From the NCBI RefSeq assembly GCF_019550915.1, contig NZ_JAHWCI010000001.1, positions 62,001 to 126,000 of the forward strand: a DNA stretch of 64,000 nt, in the 5' to 3' direction. Origin of the DNA: Mumia sp. zg.B17 (lineage in GTDB: Bacteria > Actinomycetota > Actinomycetes > Propionibacteriales > Nocardioidaceae). A program made the translations under genes and the position numbers. This document shows, one piece after another, positions 15,433 through 30,245 of this stretch. The notes beneath the pieces are model-generated. The model made no database searches, was not told the origin of the DNA, and saw only the letters and a list, made by a program, of their open reading frames with translations. How positions within the stretch are numbered: the stretch's first letter is position 1; each line of letters begins with the position of its first letter.

Positions 15433-16505
15433 CGGGGGATCTCCTGAGGTGGGGGTGGCCGGAGGGCGCGGGCGGCGTAGACGAGCGCCAGGAGCGCGGG
15501 CACCTCGATGAGAGGGCCGACGACGCCGGCGAGGGCTTCACCCGAGGTGGCGCCGAAGGTGCTGATCGCCACGGCGATCGCGAGCTCGAAGTTGTTGCCG
15601 GCAGCCGTGAACGCGACCGTCGTCGTCCGTGCGTCGTCGAGCCCGGCGGCGCGCGAGCCGATCCAGGCGAGGGCGAACATCGCGACGAAGTAGAGGAGCA
15701 GCGGCACGGCGATGCGTCCGACGTCCAGAGGTCGGCGGGTGATGGCGTCGCCCTGGAGGGCGAACAGCACCACGATCGTGAACAGCAGCCCCCACAGCGC
15801 GAGCGGGCTCACCGTGGGGAGGAAGCGGGTCTCGTACCAGGTGCGGCCCTTGAGGCGCTCGCCCAGGAGCCGGCTGGCGGCGCCGGCGGCGAGCGGGATC
15901 CCGAGGAACACCAGCACGCTGATCGCGATCGCTCCCACGCTCAGCTCGGCGCTGGTCGTCGGCAGGCCGAGCCACGCGGGGAGGATCTGGAGGTAGAACC
16001 AGCCGAGCGCGGCGAACGCGACGAGCTGGAACACGCTGTTGATCGCCACCAGGACGACGGCGGCCTCCCGGTCACCGCAGGCGAGGTCGTTCCAGATGAG
16101 GACCATCGCGATGCACCGGGCCAGGCCGACGATGATCAACCCGGTGCGGTACTCGGGGAGGTCGGGAAGCAGCAGCCAGGCGAGCGCGAACATGAGCGCC
16201 GGACCCACGATCCAGTTCAGCGTCAGCGACACCGCGATCAGACGGCGGTCGCCGAGGATCGCGCGTGTCCGGTCGTAGCGGACCTTCGCCAGGACGGGGT
16301 ACATCATCACGAGCAGGCCCAGCGCGATCGGCGCGGAGACCTCCCCGATCTCCCAGCCGCCCAGCGCGTCGTCGAGTCCGGGGACCAGGCGCCCGACCAG
16401 CAGCCCGACCGCCATCGCGGCGACGATCCACACCGGCAGCAGCCGGTCGGTCGCCGACAGCCGCCCGGCGAGAGCGGGGCGGGTGCCGGCGTCGGAGACC
16501 GTCAT
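15429..16505 (-). CDS. acr3: ACR3-family arsenite efflux permease
   Basis: A 358-aa membrane protein with about ten predicted helices. The conserved cysteine of ACR3 exporters is Cys131 in GLARCIAMVLIW, followed by NDLACGDREAAVVLVAINSVFQ. GNNFELAIAVAISTFG near the C-terminus is a second family hallmark (helix break). It expels the arsenite made by ArsC. It overlaps arsM upstream and arsC downstream by 4 nt each, so the three products are co-translated. Confidence 0.93.
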   Translation of the reverse strand: MTVSDAGTRPALAGRLSATDRLLPVWIVAAMAVGLLVGRLVPGLDDALGGWEIGEVSAPIALGLLVMMYPVLAKVRYDRTRAILGDRRLIAVSLTLNWIVGPALMFALAWLLLPDLPEYRTGLIIVGLARCIAMVLIWNDLACGDREAAVVLVAINSVFQLVAFAALGWFYLQILPAWLGLPTTSAELSVGAIAISVLVFLGIPLAAGAASRLLGERLKGRTWYETRFLPTVSPLALWGLLFTIVVLFALQGDAITRRPLDVGRIAVPLLLYFVAMFALAWIGSRAAGLDDARTTTVAFTAAGNNFELAIAVAISTFGATSGEALAGVVGPLIEVPALLALVYAARALRPPPPQEIPR

Positions 16506-17314
16506 GCAGTCGGCTTGGTGGCACGGATGATCGCACCGTGCATGCCCGGGGCCGCCTCATGGGTCAGCTCGACCGTCGCGTCGGCGAAGCCCGCCGCGGC
16601 GAGCCCGTCGAGGTACTCGCTGCGCGACAGCGCGCCGGCGATGCAGGCGACGTACGACCCGCGCTCGGCACGGTCGGCCGGCGTGAGGTGGTCCTCGGCG
16701 ACGACGTCGGAGATGCCGATGCGCCCGCCCGGAACCAGGACGCGGAACATCTCGGCGAGGACCTGGGGCTTGTCGACCGACAGGTTGATCACGCAGTTGG
16801 AGATGACCACGTCGACGGCCGCGTCGGGCAGCGGCACGTCCTCGATCGACCCCTTGAGGAACTCCACGTTCGTGGCCTCGGCCTTCGTGGCGTTGGCCCG
16901 GGCCAGGTCGAGCATCTCGTCGGTCATGTCCACGCCGTACGCGAAGCCGTCGGGACCGACGCGCCGGGCGGACAGCAGGACGTCGATCCCACCGCCGGAG
17001 CCCAGGTCGAGCACCTTCTCGCCGGGGCTCAAGGCAGCGACGGCGAGCGGGTTGCCGCAGCCGAGCGACGCGGCGAGCGCCTCGGCCGGGAGCTCGGCCG
17101 CCTCGGCGCTCGAGTACAGGCCGGCACCGAACGAGGGATCGACCTCCGCGGTGGAGCCGCCGCAGCACGAGTCCGCGGCGTCGGCGGCCGGTGCGCAGCA
17201 CGACTCGGTCGTCGCGAGAACCAGGTCGTTCGTGGTGCCGGATCGGGCCTGGACGGCGGCGGTGGCGTAGCGCTCGCGGACCTGCTCGACGAGCTCGTCG
17301 TTCGTGAGGGTCAT
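16502..17314 (-). CDS. arsM: Arsenite S-adenosylmethionine methyltransferase
   Basis: A 270-aa class I methyltransferase. The SAM motif is VLDLGSGGGIDVLLSAR (102-118), followed by GVDMTDEMLDLARANA. Conserved cysteines Cys174 (ISNCVINLSVDK) and Cys224 (VACIAGALS), with Cys86 (LGCGNP), fit the As(III)-binding set of ArsM. N-terminal Cys pairs 39/40 and 50/51 may add As(III) binding. It methylates arsenite to volatile or less toxic species. The ATG at 17314 is favoured by CAGGAG about 8 nt upstream; a longer in-frame form from 17347 would run into the operator palindrome. Confidence 0.93.
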   Translation of the reverse strand: MTLTNDELVEQVRERYATAAVQARSGTTNDLVLATTESCCAPAADAADSCCGGSTAEVDPSFGAGLYSSAEAAELPAEALAASLGCGNPLAVAALSPGEKVLDLGSGGGIDVLLSARRVGPDGFAYGVDMTDEMLDLARANATKAEATNVEFLKGSIEDVPLPDAAVDVVISNCVINLSVDKPQVLAEMFRVLVPGGRIGISDVVAEDHLTPADRAERGSYVACIAGALSRSEYLDGLAAAGFADATVELTHEAAPGMHGAIIRATKPTA

Positions 17315-17336
17315 GATGTCTCCTGAGATCGAGGAA

Positions 17337-17352
17337 GTTCGATGCATCGAAC
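17337..17352. promoter_or_regulatory. Operator palindrome in arsM/arsR divergent promoter
   Basis: GTTCGATGCATCGAAC is a perfect 16-bp palindrome just upstream of the arsM operon, a likely ArsR operator for the arsM-acr3-arsC direction. Confidence 0.55.
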
Positions 17353-17359
17353 ACTACCG

Positions 17360-17379
17360 ATTGATCGACGGATGTCAAT
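17360..17379. promoter_or_regulatory. Second ArsR-type operator (ATTGA-N10-TCAAT)
   Basis: An inverted repeat with ATTGA and TCAAT half-sites, typical of ArsR/SmtB operators. It ends 8 nt before the arsR -10 box, a position suited to autorepression. Confidence 0.5.
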
Positions 17380-17387
17380 ACGTGTGG

Positions 17388-17393
17388 CACGAT
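17388..17393 (+). promoter_or_regulatory. Candidate -10 box of arsR, leaderless
   Basis: CACGAT ends 6 nt before the arsR ATG at 17400. No Shine-Dalgarno is seen. Confidence 0.4.
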
Positions 17394-17399
17394 GGGGTG

Positions 17400-17753
17400 A
17401 TGGACATGACGCTTCCCGTCCTCGAGACCTCCGCCGGAGCATGCTGCTCGCCGCTGACCGGGGGCGTCCTCGACGACGACCAGGCCGCGGTGCTCGCCCG
17501 GATGTTCAAAGCCTTGGGTGATCCGACCAGGGTGCGGCTGATGTCGCTGATCGCCGCGTCCGAAGGAGGCGAGGCCTGCATCTGCGACCTCACCGAGCCG
17601 GTCGGGCTGAGTCAGCCGACCGTCTCGCACCACATGAAACAGCTCGTCTCCGCCGGCCTCGTCACCCGCGAGCAGCGAGGCCGATGGGCCTACTACCGCG
17701 TCGTCGACTCCGCGCTGACCGATCTGGCGTCCTCGCTGCGGACCGCGCCCTAG
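17400..17753 (+). CDS. arsR: ArsR family arsenic-responsive repressor
   Basis: A 117-aa winged-helix repressor. The DNA-binding part is about 36-100 (MFKALGDPTRVRLMSLI ... VGLSQPTVSHHMKQLVSAGLVTREQRGRWAYYRV). Cysteines Cys15-Cys16 (GACCSPL) and Cys60/Cys62 (EACICDL) could form the As(III) site. The Cys15-Cys16 pair sits where the Corynebacterium glutamicum ArsR has its pair, unlike the purely alpha-3 CVC site of plasmid R773 ArsR. It is divergent from arsM-acr3-arsC with two candidate operators between. ATG 17400 is chosen because upstream in-frame starts lie within the operators; 17406 is an alternative. Confidence 0.92.
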   Translation: MDMTLPVLETSAGACCSPLTGGVLDDDQAAVLARMFKALGDPTRVRLMSLIAASEGGEACICDLTEPVGLSQPTVSHHMKQLVSAGLVTREQRGRWAYYRVVDSALTDLASSLRTAP

Positions 17754-17800
17754 CGGGCGCTCGTCACGACGCCGCGGGTGCGGCTAGAGTCGACCTCACG

Positions 17801-17899
17801 ACAGGGGAGCGCAGGTGCCCGAGGGGCACGGTGCGCTGAGAGTGCGGAAAGCCCGCAGACCCTCCGAACCTGCACCGGTTAGCACCGGCGAAGGGAGTC
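17801..17899 (+). promoter_or_regulatory. TPP (thiamine pyrophosphate) riboswitch
   Basis: The conserved THI-box parts are in order: ACAGGGGAGC (17801-17810), GCGCTGAGAGTGCGG with the CTGAGA pyrimidine-sensor core (17833-17847), GACCCTCCGAACCTGCACCGGTT (17858-17880, the pyrophosphate-sensor ACCCT and GAACCTG), and AGCACCGGCGAAGGGAG (17881-17897). The final GAAGGGAG serves as the ribosome binding site of the next gene (GTG 17903), so TPP binding would hide it and block translation. Confidence 0.95.
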
Positions 17900-17902
17900 A
17901 CC

Positions 17903-18544
17903 GTGGCTGATGCCATTCGTCCTCGCACGTCCTCGACCCGCTACCGCACGATCGACCTCGTCACGGTGGCGATGCTCGGCGTGGCGATCGGCGTGGTGTT
18001 CTGGGGATGGAACCAGCTGTTCGCCGTCGTCAGCGGCACGGCGCTGTTCGCCTACCCCCCGAGCTCCGGCCTGATCTCCGGCGTCTGGCTGATCGGCGGT
18101 GTCATCGGCGGGCTCGTCGTCCGCAGACCCGGCGCCGCGGTCGGTACCGAGGTGGTCGCAGCCGTCGTCTCCGGCCTGCTGGGCAACCAGTGGGGCATGT
18201 CCGTCCTCGTCTCGGGCCTGATCCAGGGCCTGGGGGTCGAGCTGGTGTTCGCCCTCTTCCTGTACCGCCGGTGGGGTGTCGTCGTCGCCGCCGCAGGAGG
18301 CGCGCTCGCCGGGGCGTTCGAGGCGGTGTACGAGTGGTACGCGTACTACGCCGACTGGGCCTTCGGCTACCAGCTCGTCTATCTCGTGTTCCTCGCGGTG
18401 TCGGGGGCGCTCGTCGCGGGCGTCGGAGGGTGGCTGCTCGTCCGGGCCCTGGCGAAGACGGGTGCTCTCGACGCCTTCGGGGCCGGTCGCGAGCACCACG
18501 ACCGAGCCGCGGCGTCGTCCACGAGCCCTTCCCCGCGAGCGTGA
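17903..18544 (+). CDS. ykoE: ECF transporter substrate-binding S component, YkoE family (thiamine precursor)
   Basis: A 213-aa membrane protein with about six hydrophobic segments, beginning with VTVAMLGVAIGVVFWGWNQLF. The tryptophan- and tyrosine-rich loop YEWYAYYADWAFGYQ is typical of the YkoE family, which binds hydroxymethylpyrimidine or thiamine. Control by the TPP riboswitch immediately upstream supports this substrate class. The start is a GTG 5 nt after the riboswitch's Shine-Dalgarno. It overlaps the ATPase gene by 4 nt. Confidence 0.92.
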   Translation: MADAIRPRTSSTRYRTIDLVTVAMLGVAIGVVFWGWNQLFAVVSGTALFAYPPSSGLISGVWLIGGVIGGLVVRRPGAAVGTEVVAAVVSGLLGNQWGMSVLVSGLIQGLGVELVFALFLYRRWGVVVAAAGGALAGAFEAVYEWYAYYADWAFGYQLVYLVFLAVSGALVAGVGGWLLVRALAKTGALDAFGAGREHHDRAAASSTSPSPRA

Positions 18545-20007
18545 CCGGATCGGTCGCGTTCCGCGGCTTCGGCTGGCGTCCGCTGGGCCGGCGCACGCCG
18601 GTCGTCGCCGGCCTCGACCTGCGCGTCGACCCGGGTGAGCGGGTGCTGCTGGCGGGGCCGTCGGGTGCCGGGAAGTCGACGGTGCTCCGGGCCGCCGCAG
18701 GGGTGCTCGAGACCACCGGCGACGGCGACGCCCTCGGCGAGGTCACCACCATCGGCCGCGTCGGCATGCTGCTGCAGAACCCCGGCGACGCGGTGGTCGC
18801 CGAGCGGCTCGGCCGCGACGTGGCCTTCGGGCTCGAGAACGCCCGCGTCGCCCCGGCTGCGATCTGGCCGCGGGTGCGCGACGCGCTGCGAGCCGTACGC
18901 CTGCCGTACGGCATGCAGCACCCGACGTCCGCGCTGTCCGGAGGAGAGCTTCAGCGCTCCGCGCTGGCCGGGGTGCTGGCGTCGCAGGCGGACCTCCTGC
19001 TCCTCGACGAGCCGACGTCGATGCTCGACGACGTCAACGCCGACGCCGTACGCCGCTGCGTCGCGGAGGTCGTCGCCGAGACAGGGGCGACCCTCGTCGT
19101 GGTCGAGCACCGCATCGCCCCGTGGCTCCCTCACGTCGACCGTGTGGTCGTCCTGGGCCACGACGGATCCGTGGTCGCCGACATCGACCCGGTGAGCTTC
19201 GTCGCCACACTGCGCGACGACCTCGCCGGCGTCGGGGTGTGGATGCCGGGGGTCGCCGCGCCGGAGCCGGTCGAGCCGCCGGTCGTGCTGGTCGAGACCG
19301 ACCGCGCGGTGCCGCGCCTCGATGCGCTCGCGCTGGGCGTCGACCTGCGTCGCACCGACATCCGGGGCGCCACTGTCACCGCGGCGCTGCGCGACGTCGA
19401 CGCCGCCCTGGAGTCGCGCGCCGTCACCGTTCTCAGCGGGCCGAGCGGGGCGGGCAAGTCCACGTTGCTCGAGGTCGTCGGGGGTCTGCGACGTCCGGGT
19501 GCCGGCGAGGTGCGAGGGCTGGGTCGACCGCCGCACCGGATCGGTTCGCGCGATCTCGCCGCGCTGATCGGGTGGGTCCCGCAGAACCCGGAGCACGGCT
19601 TTCTCACGACCCGCGTCCGCGACGAGATCGCGGCGACCTCCCGGCGGATCGGCGTCCCGGTCGACGTCGACGCCGTTCTCGTCCATCTCCGGCTGGACCA
19701 CCTCGCCGACGCGAACCCGTACCGGCTCTCCGGCGGGGAGCAGCGACGGCTGGCCCTCGGTGCTGCCCTGGCTCACCGTCCGCCCGTCCTCCTGCTGGAC
19801 GAGCCCACCGTCGGTCAGGACCGGGGTACGTGGGCTGCCGTCACGGGGTGGATGCGTGCCGCTGCGGGTGCCGACGCGGTGATCGGCGCGGCCAGCCACG
19901 ACGCCGATCTCGCAGCGCGGGCCGACCGTGTCGTGCCGCTCGAGGGCGGTCGTAACGTCGCGCCCGGGCCTGCGCCCGCGCCCGCACCGGTGGACGACGC
20001 TCGATGA
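18541..20007 (+). CDS. ykoD: ECF transporter ATPase with two fused ABC domains (YkoD)
   Basis: A 488-aa protein containing two ABC ATPases in tandem. The first has Walker A AGPSGAGKST (about 37-46), signature LSGGELQR and Walker B LLLLDEPTSMLDD. The second has Walker A SGPSGAGKST (about 299-308), signature LSGGEQRR and Walker B LLLDEPTVGQD. Fusion replaces the usual EcfA/EcfA' pair. It energises YkoE/YkoC. GTG start overlaps the ykoE stop (GTGA). Confidence 0.93.
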   Translation: MTGSVAFRGFGWRPLGRRTPVVAGLDLRVDPGERVLLAGPSGAGKSTVLRAAAGVLETTGDGDALGEVTTIGRVGMLLQNPGDAVVAERLGRDVAFGLENARVAPAAIWPRVRDALRAVRLPYGMQHPTSALSGGELQRSALAGVLASQADLLLLDEPTSMLDDVNADAVRRCVAEVVAETGATLVVVEHRIAPWLPHVDRVVVLGHDGSVVADIDPVSFVATLRDDLAGVGVWMPGVAAPEPVEPPVVLVETDRAVPRLDALALGVDLRRTDIRGATVTAALRDVDAALESRAVTVLSGPSGAGKSTLLEVVGGLRRPGAGEVRGLGRPPHRIGSRDLAALIGWVPQNPEHGFLTTRVRDEIAATSRRIGVPVDVDAVLVHLRLDHLADANPYRLSGGEQRRLALGAALAHRPPVLLLDEPTVGQDRGTWAAVTGWMRAAAGADAVIGAASHDADLAARADRVVPLEGGRNVAPGPAPAPAPVDDAR

Positions 20008-20693
20008 GACGCTTCGTCCGAGATGCCAACCCGTTGGTGCTGCTCGCGATCGGCACGCTGGCGATCGTCGCCTCGCTGGCGGTGCGCGACCTGCAGACCG
20101 CGTGCCTCGCTCTCGGCGCGTACGCGGTCGCCGGTGTCGTCCTGCTCCCGTCGCCGAGGTTCGCGCTCGCCCGCTTCGGGGCGATCGCCGTCGCCTCGGT
20201 GTCGCTCGTGTGGTCGACGTGGTGGCTTGGTGGGCGTGATCTCGAGGTCGCCCTGACCGCGGGCCTGCGCATCGTCGTGCTCGCGCTGCCCGGGGCGGTG
20301 CTCGCGGCGTACGTCGACCCGTCGAAGCTGGCCGACCAGCTCGGCCAGCGGTTGCGGCTGCCGGCGCGGCCGGTGGTGGCGTTCGCCGCGGCGATGCAAC
20401 GCTTCGGTGCGCTGCGCGAGACGTGGGGCCAGCTCGACCGGACGCGACGAGCGCGTGGGTTCGGGCCGACGCGCAGCCCGTTATCACGGGTGAGGCACGC
20501 GGTCTCGCTCGCGTTCGCGCTCCTCGTGTCCGCGCTGCGCGACGCGACCCGGATGTCGGTGGCGATGGACGCACGCGGCTTCGCCTCGGCGCAGCGGCGC
20601 ACCTGGGCGGAGCCGGCGCCGTGGTCCCGCGCCGACAGCGCGCTGCTGGCTCTCGGCGTCGCGCTCGCCGCCGTACCCTGGCTCGTCCGCTGA
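20004..20693 (+). CDS. ykoC: ECF transporter transmembrane T component (YkoC)
   Basis: A 229-aa membrane protein with four to five N-terminal and C-terminal helices around a cytoplasmic coupling region. The two T-component coupling motifs, usually ARG-like, are visible as TRRARGF (150-156) and MDARGF (192-197). It links substrate capture by YkoE to the YkoD ATPase. The ATG overlaps the ykoD stop by 4 nt, and it is the last gene of the TPP-controlled operon. Confidence 0.92.
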   Translation: MRRFVRDANPLVLLAIGTLAIVASLAVRDLQTACLALGAYAVAGVVLLPSPRFALARFGAIAVASVSLVWSTWWLGGRDLEVALTAGLRIVVLALPGAVLAAYVDPSKLADQLGQRLRLPARPVVAFAAAMQRFGALRETWGQLDRTRRARGFGPTRSPLSRVRHAVSLAFALLVSALRDATRMSVAMDARGFASAQRRTWAEPAPWSRADSALLALGVALAAVPWLVR

Positions 20694-20719
20694 GCTCCTC
20701 CCCTCTAGGATCGGGGCAG

Positions 20720-20733
20720 TAAGCGAGCGCTTA
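20720..20733. promoter_or_regulatory. Candidate TetR-type operator before maoC
   Basis: TAAGCG-AG-CGCTTA, two perfect 6-bp arms, resembles the TNAGCNNNCGCTNA operators of actinobacterial fatty-acid-linked TetR regulators. It lies 15 nt before the maoC ATG. Confidence 0.45.
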
Positions 20734-20748
20734 GTGCGGAGGAATCGG

Positions 20749-21201
20749 ATGCGCGTCTTCAAGAACCTGGCCGAGCTCACCTCGTGTGTGGGGGAGGAGC
20801 TCGGCGTCAGCGAGTGGCACGAGATCACCCAGGAGCAGGTCAACCTGTTCGCGGAGGCGACCGGTGACCACCAGTGGATCCACGTCGACCCCGAGAAGGC
20901 AGCCGCGGGGCCCTTCGGTCGTACGATCGCGCACGGCTACCTCACGGTCTCGCTGATCCCGATGCTGGCCGCGGAGACCTACAAGGTCGAGAGCGTGAAG
21001 ATGGGCGTCAACTACGGGTCGGACAAGGTCCGCTTCCCCGCGCCGCTGCCCGTCGGGTCCAAGGTGCGCGGTCGCGCGAGGCTCGTCGAGGTCGTGCCGG
21101 TCGCCCTGGGCCAGCGCGTGAGCGTCGAGTTCACGATCGAGGCCGAGGGCATCGACAAGCCCGTGTGCGTCGCGCGCACGTTGGCGATCTTCGCGGAGTA
21201 G
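20749..21201 (+). CDS. MaoC-family (R)-enoyl-CoA hydratase-like protein
   Basis: A 150-aa hot-dog-fold protein. The hydratase-2 catalytic motif is FAEATGDHQWIHVDPEKAAAGPFGRTIAHGYLTVSLIP (about 35-72), with Asp42 and His47 in the usual positions. The family hydrates trans-2-enoyl-CoA to (R)-3-hydroxyacyl-CoA or acts as a dehydratase in lipid metabolism. GGAGGA precedes the ATG by 7 nt, favouring it over the GTG at 20734. A TetR-like operator upstream suggests lipid-linked control. A copy of its 3' end is found again at 22152-22183. Confidence 0.88.
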   Translation: MRVFKNLAELTSCVGEELGVSEWHEITQEQVNLFAEATGDHQWIHVDPEKAAAGPFGRTIAHGYLTVSLIPMLAAETYKVESVKMGVNYGSDKVRFPAPLPVGSKVRGRARLVEVVPVALGQRVSVEFTIEAEGIDKPVCVARTLAIFAE

Positions 21202-21244
21202 CCGCCTCACGCCACAGGACCGTGTCCGGCGACCGCCGTAGGAG

Positions 21245-21625
21245 TCAGAGGCTTCTGCTCCATGCGCACCCGAGCAGCGCGAGCGCAACCGCCGCGACGA
21301 GCACGCCCAGCCCGTACGTGGCGGCGAGGACGTAACGCTTCTCCCGGACCAGCGTGACGGTCTCGAGGCTGGCCGCGCTGAATGTCGTGTAGCCGCCCAG
21401 GAAGCCTGCCCCGACCGTCACCGCGATGTCGGACGGGGCCCGGTCGCCGGACGCCAGGCCGAGGAGGCAGCCCAGCAGGAGAGACCCGGTCAGGTTGACG
21501 ATCATGGTTGCCCAGGGGAAGCCCGAGCGCGACGTCCTGGCTGCGACCGTCCACGTGACCACGTAGCGCACGCCGGCCCCTGCGCCGCCGGCCACGACGA
21601 GCATCAGGAACTGGAGGAACGTCAC
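21245..21625 (-). CDS. crcB: FluC/CrcB fluoride channel subunit
   Basis: A 126-aa protein with four predicted transmembrane helices. The family hallmarks are Asn43 in TMIVNLTGSLLLG (central Na+/polar track) and GFLGGYTTFSAASLET (about 74-89), the Phe-box/Na+-binding helix break. FluC proteins form dimers, here probably a heterodimer with the overlapping partner gene, and let fluoride leak out of the cell. It is about half identical, position by position, to the protein from 22186-22566, with equal length. It is convergent with maoC. Confidence 0.9.
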   Translation of the reverse strand: MTFLQFLMLVVAGGAGAGVRYVVTWTVAARTSRSGFPWATMIVNLTGSLLLGCLLGLASGDRAPSDIAVTVGAGFLGGYTTFSAASLETVTLVREKRYVLAATYGLGVLVAAVALALLGCAWSRSL

Positions 21626-22083
21626 GAATCCGCCCCTCCAGCCTCGTGCCTGTCCGCAGCCCTCCGGTCATGGAGCCCGGACGCGAGCACGATGCCCAGC
21701 AGCGTCGCGCCGGCGCCGACCACGACGGTGCCTAACGCGTACGCGAGACCGATGCCGATCCTGGAGTCGTCGAACAGCGCCGCTGTGCCCGTCGCGAGCG
21801 CGCTGTAGGTCGTGAGCCCACCGCAGAACCCCGTACCGACGAGCAGCATCGAGCGCCTCGTCCGCTCCGGCGCAGGAGCGGTGCGGGTCAGGGCTTCGAA
21901 CAGGTAGCCGAGGATGAACGCGCCGATCACGTTCGCCAGCGGCACCACGAACAGGGCCCCGTCCGTGTGCCGACCGGCGAGCACGAGTCCCTCGCGCGCT
22001 GCCGCGCCGAGGGTTCCTCCGAAGACGACGAGCCCGATCGATGCTGCGCGAAGGGGCGCGCGTCCCCGTCTCGTCGTGCTCAC
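21622..22083 (-). CDS. crcB: FluC/CrcB fluoride channel subunit, partner
   Basis: A 153-aa protein with four helices and family motifs: Asn51 in LANVIGAFILGYLFE and TGFCGGLTTYSALA. It has a longer positively charged N-terminus (MSTTRRGRAPLRA) and a 20-residue hydrophilic tail. The opposite charge distribution relative to its overlapping partner suggests opposite membrane orientation, as in heterodimeric FluC pairs. It is the paralogue of the protein from 22563-23009. The stop codon overlaps the start of the downstream subunit by 4 nt. Confidence 0.9.
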   Translation of the reverse strand: MSTTRRGRAPLRAASIGLVVFGGTLGAAAREGLVLAGRHTDGALFVVPLANVIGAFILGYLFEALTRTAPAPERTRRSMLLVGTGFCGGLTTYSALATGTAALFDDSRIGIGLAYALGTVVVGAGATLLGIVLASGLHDRRAADRHEAGGADS

Positions 22084-22151
22084 CGTGATGGGTTCCGATC
22101 TCGTCCGGGGTGGCCGGTGCGGCGACTGTCCCTCCGATTGTCCGTCACACG

Positions 22152-22183
22152 CGCACCCTCGAGATCTTCGCGGAGCTAGCCGC
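22152..22183 (+). pseudogene. Remnant of the maoC 3' end (duplication scar)
   Basis: These 32 bases match the end of maoC (21175-21205) at 27 of 31 positions with one inserted C. In frame they read R-T-L-E-I-F-A-E, against R-T-L-A-I-F-A-E-stop in maoC, and the post-stop bases TAGCCGC are shared too. The remnant lies just past the stop of the second crcB pair, where the intact maoC lies relative to the first pair. It marks the edge of a tandem duplication. Confidence 0.65.
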
Positions 22184-22185
22184 GG

Positions 22186-22566
22186 CTACAGGGTCTTGCC
22201 CCAGACGAATCCGAGGAGCGAGAGCGCGACGCCTCCCCCGAGGATGCCGAAGGCGTAGGCGGCAGCCGCACCATAGCGCATCTCGCGGATCAGCTGAACG
22301 GTCTCGAAGCTTGCCATGCTGAACGTCGTGTATCCGCCGACGAACCCCGACCCGACCACGGCGCGTACGTCTGCCGAGGCGAGCCTGCTGACGACGAGGC
22401 CGGTGACAAGTCCAAGCACGAAGCAGCCGCTCAGGTTGATGAGTGCGGTAGAGATCGGGAAGGGTGGCTCCGGGTTCCTCGACCTGATCGTCTCGTCGAG
22501 GACGAAGCGCACGCACGCGCCGACGCCGCCGGCCACGATCATCAGGAGGAAGAGCGGAAAGGTCAT
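22186..22566 (-). CDS. crcB: FluC/CrcB fluoride channel subunit (second pair)
   Basis: A 126-aa, four-helix protein with Asn43 in TALINLSGCFVLG and the GFVGGYTTFSMASFET break motif. It aligns without gaps to the protein from 21245-21625 and is about 49% identical by eye, so it is an old duplicate and not a recent copy. The ATG overlaps the stop of its partner gene by 4 nt. All key polar and Phe-box positions remain, so it is probably functional. Confidence 0.9.
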   Translation of the reverse strand: MTFPLFLLMIVAGGVGACVRFVLDETIRSRNPEPPFPISTALINLSGCFVLGLVTGLVVSRLASADVRAVVGSGFVGGYTTFSMASFETVQLIREMRYGAAAAYAFGILGGGVALSLLGFVWGKTL

Positions 22567-23009
22567 GTCTCGACCTCGGTGTCGCCGGTGCTCCGCGCGC
22601 GCAGCCGCGACGCGAGCATGAACCCCGCGAACGTCGCGACGGCACCGAGGATGATCGTCCCTATGGCGTACGACACGCCGATGCCGACCCGTGAGTCGTA
22701 CAGGAGCACGGCCGTCTCGGTAGCGAGGTAGCTGTACGTCGACAGCCCGCCGCAGAACCCGACCCCGATGAGCTGCATCCACGGCGAGGTGTTTTCGGTG
22801 CCAGGCGCCTTGCGGGCGAGCGCCTCGAACAGGTAGCCGAACACGAACGCGCTGAGGATGTTCACGACGGGGACGACGATGGGGATCCCGTCTCTGTTCG
22901 GGATGGCGAGCTTGAGGCCCTCGCGAGCCGCGACCCCGACCATCGCACCCACGAAGACGAGCGCGACCGAGCCACCGCGGATCTTCGTCGGTCGGGAGTT
23001 CGACGCCAT
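22563..23009 (-). CDS. crcB: FluC/CrcB fluoride channel subunit, partner (second pair)
   Basis: A 148-aa protein with a basic N-terminus (MASNSRPTKIRGG), four helices, Asn in VVNILSAFVFGYLFEAL and the GFCGGLSTYSYLATET motif. It parallels the 21622-22083 protein, including the AAREGL start of helix 1 and the conserved YDSRVGIGVSYAIGTIILGA segment. It is first in the second FluC pair and has no strong Shine-Dalgarno. Upstream in-frame codons are open, but no convincing alternative start was found. Divergent from the ATPase gene at 23214. Confidence 0.88.
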   Translation of the reverse strand: MASNSRPTKIRGGSVALVFVGAMVGVAAREGLKLAIPNRDGIPIVVPVVNILSAFVFGYLFEALARKAPGTENTSPWMQLIGVGFCGGLSTYSYLATETAVLLYDSRVGIGVSYAIGTIILGAVATFAGFMLASRLRARSTGDTEVET

Positions 23010-23213
23010 GACAGAAGCCCCCGTCGCATGGTGAGAGTCGCCTCCTGCCGACAGTAGGCCGGACGGTCGATACCCGCGCGCCGGACGTGTCCTGGCAGCT
23101 CTGTTCGGCTTGCGGCGGTTCGGGCCGCGGCGAACCATCGAGAAACGACGACACCCAGGTTGGTTGTCTGTCCGGTGTCCAGCCGTGAGCGCTGACGAGG
23201 GGTAGGTGCGGAC

Positions 23214-23969
23214 GTGCGTGTCGTACTCGACGACGTCAAGGTGCACGGGCGGCGTGGCCTGCTGCTCGACATCGACCACTTCTCGGTGGACACCGGTGAG
23301 TGCGTCCTGATGGCAGGGGAGCCGGGCCAGGGGAACACGGCGATGGCTCTGGTAGCCGCGGGGCGGCTGGCGCCGTTCGAGGGCAAGGCGACGCTCGTCC
23401 GCGACGACGGGACGACGACCAACGACAAGGCGGAGCTGCGGAAGCTCGCGGCCGTCGTGGACCTGCCTGCTGTCTCCGAGCCCGACGACGCGGTGCCCGT
23501 CGGGACCGTCGCCGCCGAAGGTCTTGCCCTCGCCTGTCGTGGCTCGATGCCCGGCGAACCCACGAAGTGGCTCCGTGCTCACGGCTGGGAGCAGCTCCGG
23601 TCGGTCCGGATGGACGCGATCTTAGGAGCCGTGCGTACGGCCCTTCTCAGCGCGCTGGCGGCCGAGCACGAGGATGTCCGGTTCCTCGTGCTCTCGCTCC
23701 CGGACCGTCACGGCGGTGAGCCGGTGGACTGGTGGGAGATCGCGCAGTCCTACGCATCCTCCGGGTACGGGGTCCTCGTTCAGTGCGGACGGTCGTCAGC
23801 GCGGGACCTCGGCGCCAACCTCCCTGCCGCCCGCGGCGACAGCGCACGTCTGGCGACACCGGTCGAGGCCCTGCGCACCCGCCCGGAACCGGTCGACCCG
23901 GAGCGCTCGCCGTCCGACGAGACCGACGATTCCGACTGGCTGTTCGGCGAGAGAGAGAAGGATCAATGA
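23214..23969 (+). CDS. ABC-type ATPase-like protein with degenerate P-loop
   Basis: A 251-aa protein with the start of an ABC ATPase fold (VVLDDVKVHGRRGLLLDIDHFSVDTGECVLMAGEPGQGNTAMALVAAGRL). The Walker A is GEPGQGNT (35-42), in which the invariant lysine is Asn41. I cannot find an LSGGQ signature. A possible Walker B is RFLVLSLPD, without the following glutamate. The last 45 residues are acidic and disordered. The 4-nt overlap with the YhgE/Pip gene means they are made together, so it probably acts as a nucleotide-binding or structural partner of that membrane protein. Hydrolysis would be surprising. Confidence 0.7.
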   Translation: MRVVLDDVKVHGRRGLLLDIDHFSVDTGECVLMAGEPGQGNTAMALVAAGRLAPFEGKATLVRDDGTTTNDKAELRKLAAVVDLPAVSEPDDAVPVGTVAAEGLALACRGSMPGEPTKWLRAHGWEQLRSVRMDAILGAVRTALLSALAAEHEDVRFLVLSLPDRHGGEPVDWWEIAQSYASSGYGVLVQCGRSSARDLGANLPAARGDSARLATPVEALRTRPEPVDPERSPSDETDDSDWLFGEREKDQ

Positions 23970-26059
23970 TCGCGATCCGGCTGGCCGTCTCGGAGATCCG
24001 GCGCATCAGCGCCGGCACGCTGCCCAAGCTGGCGATCCTCGCCATGGTGGTGATCCCTTCGTTGTACGCAGGGCTCTACCTGTTCGCCAACGAGGACCCG
24101 TACGGCGAGCTCCACCGCGTACCGGCGGCCCTCGTGGTGCAGGACCGTGGGGCGACGATGACCGACGCGATCAACGGGACGACCGAGAAGGTCGACTACG
24201 GGGACCAGGTCGCCGACCGCCTCCTGAGCGGCGACGGTGGATTCGGCTGGGTCGAGACGTCGGAGGGAGAGGCGGAGTCCGGTGTGCGGAACGGACGCTA
24301 CGACGCCGCGCTCATCATCGGTCCACAGTTCTCCGAGGAGCTGACGTCGTCCGCCCGGTTCGAGCCGGAGCGAGCAGGGCTCACCCTCATCACCAACGAC
24401 GCCAACAACTACCTCGTCACCCGGGTCGCCGAGACGATCGTGGGAGACGTGCGGGACACGATCGCGACACAGGTGGGCACCTTCGCCGCGGGCACCTTCC
24501 TCGACGGGCTCTCCGTGGTGCACACCGATCTGACGAAGGGGGTGGACGGTGCGCAGGAGCTCGTCGCCGGCTCCAGCCGGCTCACCAACGGGACCGTCGA
24601 GCTCGTCGACGGGACGGCGACGCTCGCGCGTGGTGCGCAGGAGGCTGCGAACGGGTCCGCCCGGCTCGAGTCGGGTGCCGACGAGCTGGCGAGCGGGACG
24701 CGTCGCATCGCCAACGGCGCGAGCACGCTCTCGAACGGGCTCGACGAGCTGAAGCGTCGCACCGGGAGCCTGCCGGCGGACACGCGCAAGCTCGCGCACG
24801 GCGCGCAGGAGGTCGCCGACGGGAACGCGAAGGTCGCCGCCGTCGGTGACGACGCGGCCGAGGTGGCGGGAACGGTCGTCGACCAGTTCCGCGCCTCGCG
24901 CGCCTCGCTCGACGAAGGCCTCGATGCGCTCGTCGAGCAGGGGAGGATGACCGACGCCGAGAGAGACGCCCTGATGGCGTTGTTCGCCGACGCCGAGGTC
25001 CCGGTCGACGCGGTGGCAGCGCAGATCGAGAGCGCCGCAGACCGGCTCGACGCGCTCAGCAGGGGGTCCTCCGAGGTCGCCGCCGGCACCGAGAAGCTCG
25101 CGGCCGCTGCCCCGGACCTCACGCAGGGCGTCAGGAGGGCCGCGTCGGGAGGAGCGGAGCTCGCCTCGGGATCGGCACGCGTCGACCGCGGCGCCCAGAC
25201 GCTGGCGCGTGGTGCCGGCACCCTGGCGGACGGGACGGAGAAGGTGGCGAACGGTGCTGAGCGGCTCGCCACCTCGAGCACCGCGCTGCGCAAGGGCAGC
25301 GCGAGGCTCGAGACCGGGACCGGCGAGCTCCGGAACGGGCTGCAGGACGGGCTGCGCAAGGTCCCCGACCTGGACAAGACGACCGCGCGCGATACCGCAG
25401 AGACGATCGGTGACCCCGTAGCGGTCAAGGAGGACACCCTCGCGCGTGCGGGGTCGTACGGGGCCGGCCTCGCCCCCTTCTTCCTGCCGCTCGCAGCATG
25501 GATCGGGGCGTACGTGCTCTTCCTGCTCGTCCGGCCGTTGTCGTCGCGTGCCCTCGCGGCGAACGGTCCGGCGACCCGGACGGCGCTCGGCGGATGGGCC
25601 CCGCCGGCGGTCGTCGGGCTGGTCCAGGTCGCGGTCATGTTCACGATCGTCCGGTTCGCGCTCGACATCGCTCCGGTCTACGAGGTCGCGACGGCCGCTG
25701 TGCTCGTGATCGCATCGATGTCCTTCGTCGCGATCCTGCAGGCGCTCAACGCCTGGCTCGGCGAGGTGGGCGAGTTCCTGGGGCTCGTCCTCATGCTCGT
25801 CCAGCTCGTCACGGCGGGCGGCACGTTCCCGTGGGAGACGATCCCCGAGCCGCTGCGGTCGCTGCACTGGCTCCTGCCGATGTCCTACGCGGTCAACGGG
25901 CTTCGGCAGACCCTCTACGGGGGCGAGGCGTGGATCGTCGTCCGGGACCTCTCGGTGCTGGTCGGCGTGTTCGTCGTGGCGATCATCCTGACCGCGCTGG
26001 CCGCGCGACGGCAGAAGGTCTGGACACCGAAGCAGCTGCAGCCCGAGCTCGTCATCTGA
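23966..26059 (+). CDS. YhgE/Pip-family membrane protein (ABC-2 permease-like)
   Basis: A 697-aa protein. One N-terminal helix (about 20-38, KLAILAMVVIPSLYAGLYLFA) is followed by a large extracytoplasmic region of about 430 residues and a C-terminal ABC-2-like bundle of five to six helices (about 495-685). The extracytoplasmic part contains many 7-residue repeats of the kind xxLxxGa (LVAGSSRLTNGTVELVDGTATLARG...), as in YhgE/Pip, phage-infection protein and type VII secretion EsaA relatives. These predict a long coiled-coil-like rod. Function is probably export or envelope organisation. Confidence 0.85.
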   Translation: MIAIRLAVSEIRRISAGTLPKLAILAMVVIPSLYAGLYLFANEDPYGELHRVPAALVVQDRGATMTDAINGTTEKVDYGDQVADRLLSGDGGFGWVETSEGEAESGVRNGRYDAALIIGPQFSEELTSSARFEPERAGLTLITNDANNYLVTRVAETIVGDVRDTIATQVGTFAAGTFLDGLSVVHTDLTKGVDGAQELVAGSSRLTNGTVELVDGTATLARGAQEAANGSARLESGADELASGTRRIANGASTLSNGLDELKRRTGSLPADTRKLAHGAQEVADGNAKVAAVGDDAAEVAGTVVDQFRASRASLDEGLDALVEQGRMTDAERDALMALFADAEVPVDAVAAQIESAADRLDALSRGSSEVAAGTEKLAAAAPDLTQGVRRAASGGAELASGSARVDRGAQTLARGAGTLADGTEKVANGAERLATSSTALRKGSARLETGTGELRNGLQDGLRKVPDLDKTTARDTAETIGDPVAVKEDTLARAGSYGAGLAPFFLPLAAWIGAYVLFLLVRPLSSRALAANGPATRTALGGWAPPAVVGLVQVAVMFTIVRFALDIAPVYEVATAAVLVIASMSFVAILQALNAWLGEVGEFLGLVLMLVQLVTAGGTFPWETIPEPLRSLHWLLPMSYAVNGLRQTLYGGEAWIVVRDLSVLVGVFVVAIILTALAARRQKVWTPKQLQPELVI

Positions 26060-26147
26060 GCGCCCACCGCAGGGTCGGTGCCATCTCACCCGTCCGCGCG
26101 GTCCGGGATCGGGGCCGCTACGGTGGAATGAAGTCGCGCTCATATAA

Positions 26148-26168
26148 GTTGATACGATCAGACTCAAC
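26148..26168. promoter_or_regulatory. HAIR element (HspR operator) of dnaK operon
   Basis: GTTGATA-CGATCAG-ACTCAAC follows the 7-7-7 layout of HAIR (CTTGAGT-N7-ACTCAAG), with a near-perfect right arm and a weaker left arm. It lies 61 nt upstream of the dnaK ATG, where HspR binding would block transcription. Confidence 0.75.
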
Positions 26169-26229
26169 TCATTGAACGCAGGCAGTCGGCGGGTCACAAG
26201 CCCGCCCCGCGAACCCTCAGGAGGAACAC

Positions 26230-28079
<1,850 letters not shown>

Positions 28080-28083
<4 letters not shown>

Positions 28084-28673
28084 CGAACGAGTTCGAGGAG
28101 ACCGTGGAGCCGGAGCAGGAGACCCCTGCTCCGGCCCCCGGGCCCGCGGACGCGCAGCCGGAGGTGGCCGGCGCAAGCCGGGAGGGTGGCGAGGACGACC
28201 TCGCCCGTCAGCTCGCCGAGCGCACGGCCGATCTCCAGCGTCTGCAGGCCGAGTACGTCAACTACAAGCGGCGGGTCGACCGTGACCGTGAGGCGCAGAG
28301 ACTGAACGCCACCGCGGCGGTCCTCGTCTCGTTCCTCCCGGTCCTCGACGACATCGGGCGTGCCCGTGACCACGGCGAGCTCGAGGGCGGCTTCAAGGCC
28401 GTCGCCGACTCGTTGGTCCAGGCCACCAGCGCTCATGGGCTGGAGCCGTTCGGAGCGCCCGGAGACGTGTTCGACCCGATGCTCCACGAGGCGCTCATGC
28501 ACCGTCTCGACGCCGACGCTCCCGAGGGGGAGCCGACCGTCGACGCGATCATGCAGGTGGGCTACCGGATCGGTGACAAGGTCCTCCGGCCGGCGCGGGT
28601 CTCCGTGGTCGAGCACGACGACACCCCGGTGGCCGAGGCCGACGAGGACGCGTCGCAGCCGGCGACCGAGTGA
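28080..28673 (+). CDS. grpE: Nucleotide exchange factor GrpE
   Basis: A 197-aa protein: a disordered acidic N-terminus (1-45), a coiled coil (about 42-80, [33 protein letters not shown]) and a C-terminal beta domain with the signature ending [24 protein letters not shown]. It exchanges ADP for ATP on DnaK. The GTG start overlaps the dnaK stop by 4 nt. Confidence 0.96.
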
Positions 28674-28704
28674 TCCGTACGACGAGGTGTGAGGAGGTGG
28701 TCTC

Positions 28705-29847
28705 GTGAACAACGAGTGGTTCGAGAAGGACTTCTACAAGGTCCTGGGAGTCTCGAAGGACGCGAGCGCGTCCGACATCAAGAAGGCGTACCGCAAGCTC
28801 GCACGGGACCACCACCCCGACGCCAAGCCCGGTGACAAGGCTGCCGAGGAGAAGTTCAAGGAGATCTCCGAGGCGTACGGCGTGCTCTCCAACGCGGACA
28901 AGCGCAAGGAGTACGACGAGCAGCGGGCGATGTTCTCCTCCGGGGTCGGCGGCTTCGGTCGTGCGGGCTCGGAAGGTGGGTTCGGCTATCCCGGCGGTAC
29001 GACGACGACCGGCGGGTTCGACTTCTCGGACCTGCTGGGCGGGATGTTCGGCGGGGGTGGGACCACCCGCACCCGGTCGGCGCCGGCCCGTCGCGGGGCC
29101 GACGTCGAGACCGAGGCGACGCTGTCGTTCGACGACGCGATCGCCGGCGTCACCGTGCCGCTGCGGACGACCAGCGACGAGCCCTGCCCCACGTGTCGTG
29201 GCACCGGCGCCAAGGCCGGCACCGTGCCCCGGGTCTGTCCCCGCTGCGAGGGCAGCGGGATGCAGACCAGCGCCTCGGGTGGCCTGTTCGCGATGACCGA
29301 GCCGTGCGACGTCTGCCGCGGACGCGGCCTCGTGGTCGAGGATCCGTGCGAGACCTGCCACGGGTCGGGCCGTGCGGCGTCGACACGCACGATGCAGGTC
29401 CGCATCCCCGCGGGGGTCAAGGACGGGCAGCGCATCCGACTCAAGGGCAAGGGCGCGAAGGGCGAGAACGGCGGCCCCTCCGGCGACCTCTACGTCTCGG
29501 TCCACGTCAAGCCCCACCGTCTGTTCGGCCGCAAGGGCGACAACCTCACCATCACCGTGCCGGTGGCGTTCGACGAGGCCGTGCTGGGTGCCGAGATCGC
29601 CGTCCCGACGCTCGGCGGAGCGCCGGTCCGCATCAAGGTGCCGGCGGGGACCCCGAACGGCCGCACGTTCCGTGCGCGTGGCAAGGGCGCTCCTCGCAAG
29701 GACGGCACCAAGGCCGACCTGCTGGTGACGGTGGAGGTTCAGGTGCCGTCGTCCCTGACCGACGATGCTCGGACCGCGGTCGAGTCGTTGCGCAACGCTC
29801 GTGAAGGAGACGACCCCCGCGCGCAGCTCTTCTCCGGAGGTGTCTGA
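28705..29847 (+). CDS. dnaJ: Chaperone protein DnaJ (Hsp40)
   Basis: A 380-aa type I J-protein. The J-domain (about 8-76) contains the HPD tripeptide in [16 protein letters not shown] Gly/Phe-rich linker follows (77-125), then four zinc-binding CxxCxGxG repeats ([32 protein letters not shown]) and the C-terminal substrate-binding domains. It stimulates DnaK ATPase activity. GTG start with a GGAGG ribosome site. It ends overlapping the hspR start. Confidence 0.97.
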
Positions 29848-30245
29848 TGAGCCGTTCCCAGGGTGACTTCGTCCCGCCCGGCCCGGAGGCCAAGGTCTTC
29901 GTGATCAGCGTGGCGGCGGAGCTCTCGGGGCTCCACCCGCAGACCCTGCGGGCGTACGACCGGCTCGGGCTGGTGAGGCCCGCCCGGACCGGTGGTGGCG
30001 GGCGGCGCTACTCGCTGCGCGACATCGAGCTCCTCCGCTCGGTCGCGCGGCTCACGGCCGAGGGTCTCGGGCTCGAGGGCGTCAAGCGCGTCCTCGAGCT
30101 CGAGAACCAGGTGCTCGCCCTGCAGGCTCGGGTCGTCGAGCTCGAGACCGAGCTGGAGGAGCGCGACTCCGACGCTCCGCGGGTACGCAATCTTCCTGTG
30201 CGCTTCGACGCCCAGCCGTTCCTCATCCGCCGTACGCGACGCTGA
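29847..30245 (+). CDS. hspR: Heat-shock repressor HspR (MerR family)
   Basis: A 132-aa regulator. The MerR-type winged helix is about residues 16-80 (VISVAAELSGLHPQTLRAYDRLGLVRPART...GGRRYSLRDIELL). A coiled-coil dimerisation helix follows (85-115, LEGVKRVLELENQVLALQARVVELETELEERD). It binds HAIR sites, here before dnaK (26148-26168) and clpB (32790-32814), with DnaK as co-repressor. The ATG shares its A with the dnaJ stop. Confidence 0.96.
   Translation: MSRSQGDFVPPGPEAKVFVISVAAELSGLHPQTLRAYDRLGLVRPARTGGGGRRYSLRDIELLRSVARLTAEGLGLEGVKRVLELENQVLALQARVVELETELEERDSDAPRVRNLPVRFDAQPFLIRRTRR

Follow-up and report, generated by a model that had tools for sequence, protein, structure and literature searches.

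The analyzed window, a stretch of 64,000 nucleotides from Mumia sp. zg.B17, contained four complete CrcB/FluC-type genes on its minus strand. These genes were arranged in two overlapping pairs, A/B (21245-22083) and C/D (22186-23009). The maoC gene and gene A stood tail-to-tail, and a short stretch resembling the maoC 3' end lay between the two pairs. The features of the locus were as follows.

20749-21201, plus strand: maoC, encoding a MaoC-like dehydratase (Pfam MaoC_dehydratas, 93.3 bits); its last ~40 bp recur beside gene C
21245-21625, minus strand: gene A, FluC-type subunit of pair 1, 126 aa (Pfam CRCB, 77.7 bits; pore places Phe/Ala)
21622-22083, minus strand: gene B, partner subunit of pair 1, 153 aa (Pfam CRCB, 63.6 bits; pore places Tyr/Leu)
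22084-22138, no strand: spacer upstream of B, with no detectable similarity to the spacers upstream of D or of the congeners' genes
22139-22183, plus strand: maoC relic, a copy of the last maoC bases with the stop codon (22177-22179) and four bases beyond
22186-22566, minus strand: gene C, FluC-type subunit of pair 2 and counterpart of A, 126 aa (Pfam CRCB, 81.6 bits; pore places Phe/Ala)
22563-23009, minus strand: gene D, partner subunit of pair 2 and counterpart of B, 148 aa (Pfam CRCB, 65.4 bits; pore places Tyr/Leu)

All four proteins exceeded the Pfam CRCB cut-off of 32.9 bits (63.6-81.6 bits), and they were the only CRCB matches in the whole 3.86-Mb genome. With the NCBIfam model TIGR00494, 'fluoride efflux transporter CrcB' (cut-off 80.45), C scored above the cut-off (84.6), and A (78.6), D (56.9) and B (55.5) scored below it. 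The conserved Asn of TM2 (N41 in Ec2) was present in all four proteins. The first-pass annotation of this DNA had described four intact crcB/fluC genes in two overlapping pairs, and both the open reading frames and the Pfam matches bear this out.

Each pair consisted of two adjacent, diverged CrcB genes, one of each partner type, which overlapped by 4 nt (21622-21625 for B/A and 22563-22566 for D/C). The partners inside one pair were 27-30% identical at the protein level. The counterparts were 48.4% (A and C) and 51.0% (B and D) identical, which agrees with the annotation's estimate that the subunits were about half identical. Its description of the subunits as equal in length was right for A and C and wrong for B and D, which differ by the lengths given above.

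No fluoride riboswitch was listed at E up to 5 in the region 16000-30000. The sole match of the riboswitch search above the gathering score in this region was a TPP riboswitch at 17793-17913, which precedes genes resembling an ECF-type uptake system (one CbiQ match). Between 20600 and 23300, a scan covering E. coli-type promoters only returned no promoter-like sites, and terminator-like sites likewise numbered zero. A palindrome, TAAGCGAGCGCTTA, was located at 20720-20733, immediately 5' of maoC, and the congener upstream regions inspected contained TAAGCGATCGCTTA; this palindrome ahead of maoC is perhaps a candidate repressor site. The host genome also encodes one CLC-family protein.

The maoC relic and the doubled block

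The maoC end at 21175-21205 matched 22152-22183 at 27 of 31 positions with one inserted C, exactly as first annotated, and the local match reached even further left, to 22139, with a score of 42. This score was reached by none of 3000 dinucleotide shuffles of the spacer (maximum 31) and by none of 2454 window pieces of 102 bp taken from both strands (maximum 32). The 13-mer GATCTTCGCGGAG, common to the relic and maoC, had three copies in the 3.86-Mb genome, two of them at this locus.

For comparison we used five Mumia congeners (G001-G005), among which G003 is M. quercus NEAU-365. When 65 bp around the relic were searched in the six Mumia genomes, the maoC end was the best non-self match in five of them (the own genome, G001, G002, G003 and G005); in G004 the maoC end was absent among the eight matches at E up to 1. 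The relic also continued through the maoC stop into CCGC, the same bases that follow maoC in the window, in M. quercus and in G004. Because the relic carries the stop codon and the following CCGC, surpasses all shuffles and window pieces, and finds its best non-self match in the maoC end in five of six Mumia genomes, it is maoC-derived DNA. A chance match or an assembly artefact might be suspected from the shortness of the relic, its position in GC-rich DNA and the single genome of this species at hand. However, none of the shuffles or window pieces equaled its score, the maoC end was the best match in five of six genomes, the similarity ran over the stop codon into bases known to follow maoC, and the locus sits 83-85 kb into a 295-kb contig. 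Such an origin is extremely improbable, and we rejected it on the shuffles, the 13-mer count and the genus-wide search.

Each of the five congeners had two CRCB matches, i.e., one pair. In two of them, M. quercus and G004, the pair adjoined maoC tail-to-tail and in the same order, while in G001, G002 and G005 the FluC pair was found at another location and was only distantly related to the maoC-linked pairs. Neither a second pair nor a relic was seen in the five congeners. In the window, flanking sequence of the unit was found beside both copies of the pair (the relic, 22139-22183, for the second). The relic lies beside gene C, and each congener has a single pair, linked to maoC in two of the five; therefore, the window carries two adjacent copies of a block made up of the maoC 3' end and a FluC-type pair of genes. 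This is the repeated unit that the annotation had proposed, and the relic score and the genus-wide search support it. The annotation had also stated that the relic is placed exactly as the intact maoC is. This was correct for order and orientation, but the spacing differs, with 43 nt from the maoC stop to the A stop and 6 nt from the relic TAG to the C stop. The corresponding distance from the maoC stop to the stop of the pair was 19 nt in M. quercus and 11 nt in G004.

The FluC locus has been rebuilt between Mumia species. In M. quercus and G004 (L045 and L046), a large membrane-protein gene came after the FluC pair, together with genes that by eye resemble urease genes. In the window, the region next to the FluC pairs (23099-26230) carried an ABC-type and a YhgE-like gene, followed by dnaK.

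Double pairs are rare. Two B/D-type matches at E up to 1e-15 were detected in 2 of 341 family genomes, the window's genome and G040; those of G040 were located in separate, far-apart places, and one of them has an internal TGA. At least four CRCB matches were detected in 4 of the 118 genomes of a class-wide sample, again with the window's genome included. Genomes G365, G431 and G461 of this sample had extra CRCB matches. The literature searched by titles and abstract openings yielded no mention of a doubled FluC pair or of a maoC scar.

Phylogeny of the pairs and origin of the doubling

In the concatenated protein tree (24 pairs, with six more distant rows left out), the four Mumia maoC-linked pairs formed one clade (91/84). 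Within it, A/B branched beside M. quercus (83/77) and C/D was outermost (86/79 for the remaining three); none of these Mumia-clade branches meets the program's mark for a safe branch. In the tree of the B/D-type subunits alone, the Mumia pairs were not resolved from Nocardioides and Cellulomonas pairs; the trees of this analysis excluded L052 and L075 (the same loci as L008 and L005) and L079-L086. The annotation had named a second pair grouping with a distant genus (transfer) as a finding that would speak against its own reading. With the four Mumia pairs in one clade (91/84 in the concatenated tree), a transfer from a distant genus was not supported.

At the nucleotide level, A/B again grouped with M. 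quercus, with a support of 99.4/100 under GTR and of 94 for positions 1+2. Under the codon model, the best of five tested topologies also placed A/B beside M. quercus. A separate one-rate codon fit gave the same best topology, but with branches near saturation. The nucleotide and codon topology tests used eight rows with a single fixed outgroup arrangement; the free GTR tree arranged the outgroups differently, and the free codon tree placed C/D with G004 at a bootstrap of 36%. When A/B and C/D were constrained as sisters, this grouping was rejected by one of four analyses, GTR on all positions (AU 0.0018), and not by the protein (AU 0.288), codon (0.148) or position 1+2 (0.115) analyses.

The flanking genes ecfT, thiW, dnaK and maoC followed another pattern, in which M. 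quercus was nearest to G004 and not to the window. Because A/B leans to M. quercus while the flanking genes group M. quercus with G004, A/B may have been exchanged between lineages, although this is suggestive only. GC was higher in A/B and likewise higher in M. quercus than in G004, and the shared GC-richness may pull A/B and M. quercus together in the trees.

Both pairs of the window evolve faster at the protein level than the single pairs of the congeners. Relative-rate tests were run against each of the two single congener pairs (M. quercus and G004) with four outgroups; in these tests, which share data and are uncorrected, an excess of amino-acid change at p<0.05 was found in 8 of 8 for A/B and in 7 of 8 for C/D. 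At fourfold sites, one of eight tests showed an excess for A/B and one of eight for C/D. Between M. quercus and G004, none of four protein tests did. The fast protein change fits relaxed constraint or active divergence after the two pairs came to share one cell.

At fourfold sites, A/B differed from M. quercus at 49/132 and from G004 at 52/120, and C/D differed from the same two at 59/119 and 56/124. M. quercus and G004 differed at 63/149, and the two window pairs at 52/100. These values bear on a duplication within the window lineage only, in which case the block would have doubled once M. quercus and G004 had branched off, and both pairs would then have diverged very fast. The occurrence of two pairs in the window alone among the six genus genomes is in agreement with such an event, and so is the fast protein change of both pairs. 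However, the two pairs are separated by changes at 52/100 sites and A/B from M. quercus by only 49/132, and the sister grouping which this event demands was rejected under GTR, if not by the other models. We regard a duplication confined to the window lineage as quite improbable.

Alternatively, unequal recombination may have duplicated the block in place and in tandem long ago, no later than the divergence of the window lineage, M. quercus and G004, with C/D subsequently lost from the latter two. The dS between the window pairs (0.87 and 0.84) is only moderately above the dS between species (0.38-0.74, window pairs versus M. quercus). Both units share the same order and orientation, C/D was outermost among the Mumia pairs in the concatenated tree, and three of the four models rejected none of the histories. 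On the other hand, such a duplication requires both relatives to have lost C/D and the relic, traces of which were seen in neither, and A/B is nearer to M. quercus than the flanking genes are. The preservation of the non-coding relic also speaks against it. An old duplication is nevertheless nearly as probable as the history preferred below, and we place it somewhat short of an even chance.

The preservation was estimated over the 41 aligned positions of the relic, for which ~13.7 changes were expected at the fourfold rate of the C/D branch. Four changes were observed against the M. quercus end (P 0.0005) and six against the own end (P 0.006), and across comparisons 2-6 changes were seen where about 10-14 were predicted (P 0.0005-0.009); with the slower A/B branch as clock, P was 0.03 for the M. 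quercus end and 0.15 for the own end (range 0.018-0.15), and all of these P values are flattered because the relic was picked out for its similarity. On the C/D-branch clock, the non-coding scar has changed less than would be expected from silent sites. No fold that could explain the preservation was seen (z +1.40 for 22140-22200 and -0.29 for 22084-22185), and the scan for E. coli-type promoters and for terminators gave no signal that could do so. Six comparisons among the upstream spacers of B, D and the M. quercus and G004 genes, including M. quercus versus G004, detected no similarity.

Against the maoC ends of the genus, the relic scored 52 for M. quercus and for G005, 50 for G002, 42 for the own end, and 41 for G004 and for G001. 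It resembles the maoC ends of three of the five congeners more than its own. At the site of a TTG in the own maoC, CTC is found in the relic and in every one of the five congeners, and the closeness of the relic to other congeners may perhaps reflect only that the own maoC has changed two bases. Within the own maoC, the sites shared with G002/G005 clustered in the 5' part and those shared with M. quercus/G004 in the 3' part (p 0.0027 for 18 sites with G003=G004 and G002=G005, which were chosen after looking, with one site matching neither dropped). Over its full length, the own maoC was nearest to that of G002. The gene looks mosaic, with signs of past recombination.

We prefer, with a likelihood close to even, a recombination that joined already diverged pairs. 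Several observations point to it. The relic is maoC-derived and well preserved while none of the upstream spacers (B, D and the congener genes) shows similarity to another; it scores better with the maoC ends of three congeners (M. quercus, G005 and G002) than with the own one; A/B stands beside M. quercus in the best trees although the flanking genes pair M. quercus with G004; and the own maoC itself looks mosaic. Several results argue against it. The protein, codon and position 1+2 analyses left the sister grouping of A/B and C/D unrejected, and the GC likeness may draw A/B to M. quercus. On the A/B clock, the preservation of the scar relative to the own maoC is unsurprising (P 0.15), and the relic matches G004 and G001 no better than its own maoC. 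In addition, no genome that could have served as donor was found, and B and its M. quercus counterpart have unlike upstream spacers.

According to the preferred recombination, a FluC pair would already have stood beside maoC in the common ancestor that the window lineage shared with M. quercus and G004. A second block of maoC end and pair, diverged in another Mumia-like lineage, would then have entered by recombination with one end anchored in maoC. At its other end, a junction without homology would have formed ~40 bp short of the end of a maoC copy, with the tail of that copy left stranded between the pairs. The moved pair would more likely be A/B, which leans to M. quercus. Once together, both pairs would have changed fast in protein sequence.

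The annotation had read the locus as an old tandem duplication. The doubling of the block stands, but its age and mode became less well supported in view of the preservation of the scar, the scores of the relic against the congeners and the grouping of A/B with M. quercus. The scar of a duplication was confirmed in gene pairs of a known kind; its age and mechanism are less certain than first proposed. A scar of about 45 bp reveals how a gene pair became doubled, and dating by protein divergence alone may mislead in this case.

Pore residues and comparison with known Fluc pairs

Pairs of the Fluc family are described as antiparallel heterodimers passing fluoride (PMC3755343). In Fluc-Ec2, each pore is reported to combine F80 and F83 from opposite subunits, and the variants F80Y, F83A and F83L are given as inactive (PMC5636608, PMC4969038). 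With the register set by alignment to Ec2 and its F80Y, F83I and F83M chains, the two central pore places were Phe/Ala in A and C and Tyr/Leu in B and D. The predicted pores of both pairs are Phe+Leu and Tyr+Ala, and a pore with Phe at both central places (the F80/F83, Ec2/Bpe criterion) was absent from both window pairs.

The same absence was found among 30 compared pairs, i.e., the window's two and L005-L009, L051, L053-L056, L060-L074 and L076-L078. In this set, which was assembled from congeners and from the top matches to the B/D alignment and is not a census, none had a two-Phe pore, and 27 of the 30 had Phe/Ala with Tyr/Leu. Among eight further Nocardioidaceae loci, two keep one two-Phe pore (L079 and L081), four do not, and two were read for one partner. 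The class-wide survey of 30 high-scoring CRCB loci gave 23 readable pairs, the motif pattern having misread or missed a partner in the seven loci left unscored; all 23 keep at least one two-Phe pore, and 16 of them are Phe/Tyr with Tyr/Phe. Loss of the last two-Phe pore seems to characterize a subset of the actinobacterial pairs.

Judging from its family, each window pair would form a membrane channel of two antiparallel subunits through which fluoride leaves the cell. Because neither pair keeps a two-phenylalanine pore, fluoride transport by these pairs can only be inferred. The annotation had concluded that selection maintains both heterodimers. The four intact frames make this plausible, but with accelerated protein change in both pairs and a canonical pore in neither, a kept function is only presumed. 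A further scenario would have two diverged FluC-type heterodimers without a canonical pore, joined by recombination, diverging fast to avoid cross-assembly, perhaps with an altered conductance or ion preference in one of them; we consider it rather unlikely. The coexistence of two intact two-subunit pairs in one cell offers a natural test for the ways in which subunits avoid mixing, and related pairs without any two-phenylalanine pore would test a rule derived from a homodimeric channel.

Among the closest known arrangements are the single pairs of M. quercus (G003) and G004, which have the same genes, the same order and the same tail-to-tail placement to maoC as the window. In contrast to the window with its two pairs, they have one pair, no relic and slower protein evolution. 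The proposed joining resembles homology-facilitated illegitimate recombination, in which one end is anchored by homology and the other is joined without it; here, such an event would be read from the scar only.

Heterodimeric Fluc (CrcB) proteins are on record from Lactobacillus acidophilus, where the partners La1 and La2 are described as ~25% identical and as encoded, likewise, by two adjacent, overlapping and distantly related CrcB genes (PMC3755343). The window differs in having two such pairs side by side and predicted pores without the usual phenylalanine pair. A pair without a second-place Phe is also already on record: Mt1/Mt2 is described with Met and Trp at this place and with Phe in neither subunit, and the window pairs are alike in that the second central place is without phenylalanine in both subunits (PMC5636608). 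However, the window pairs have Ala and Leu there, and Tyr replaces one of the first-place phenylalanines.
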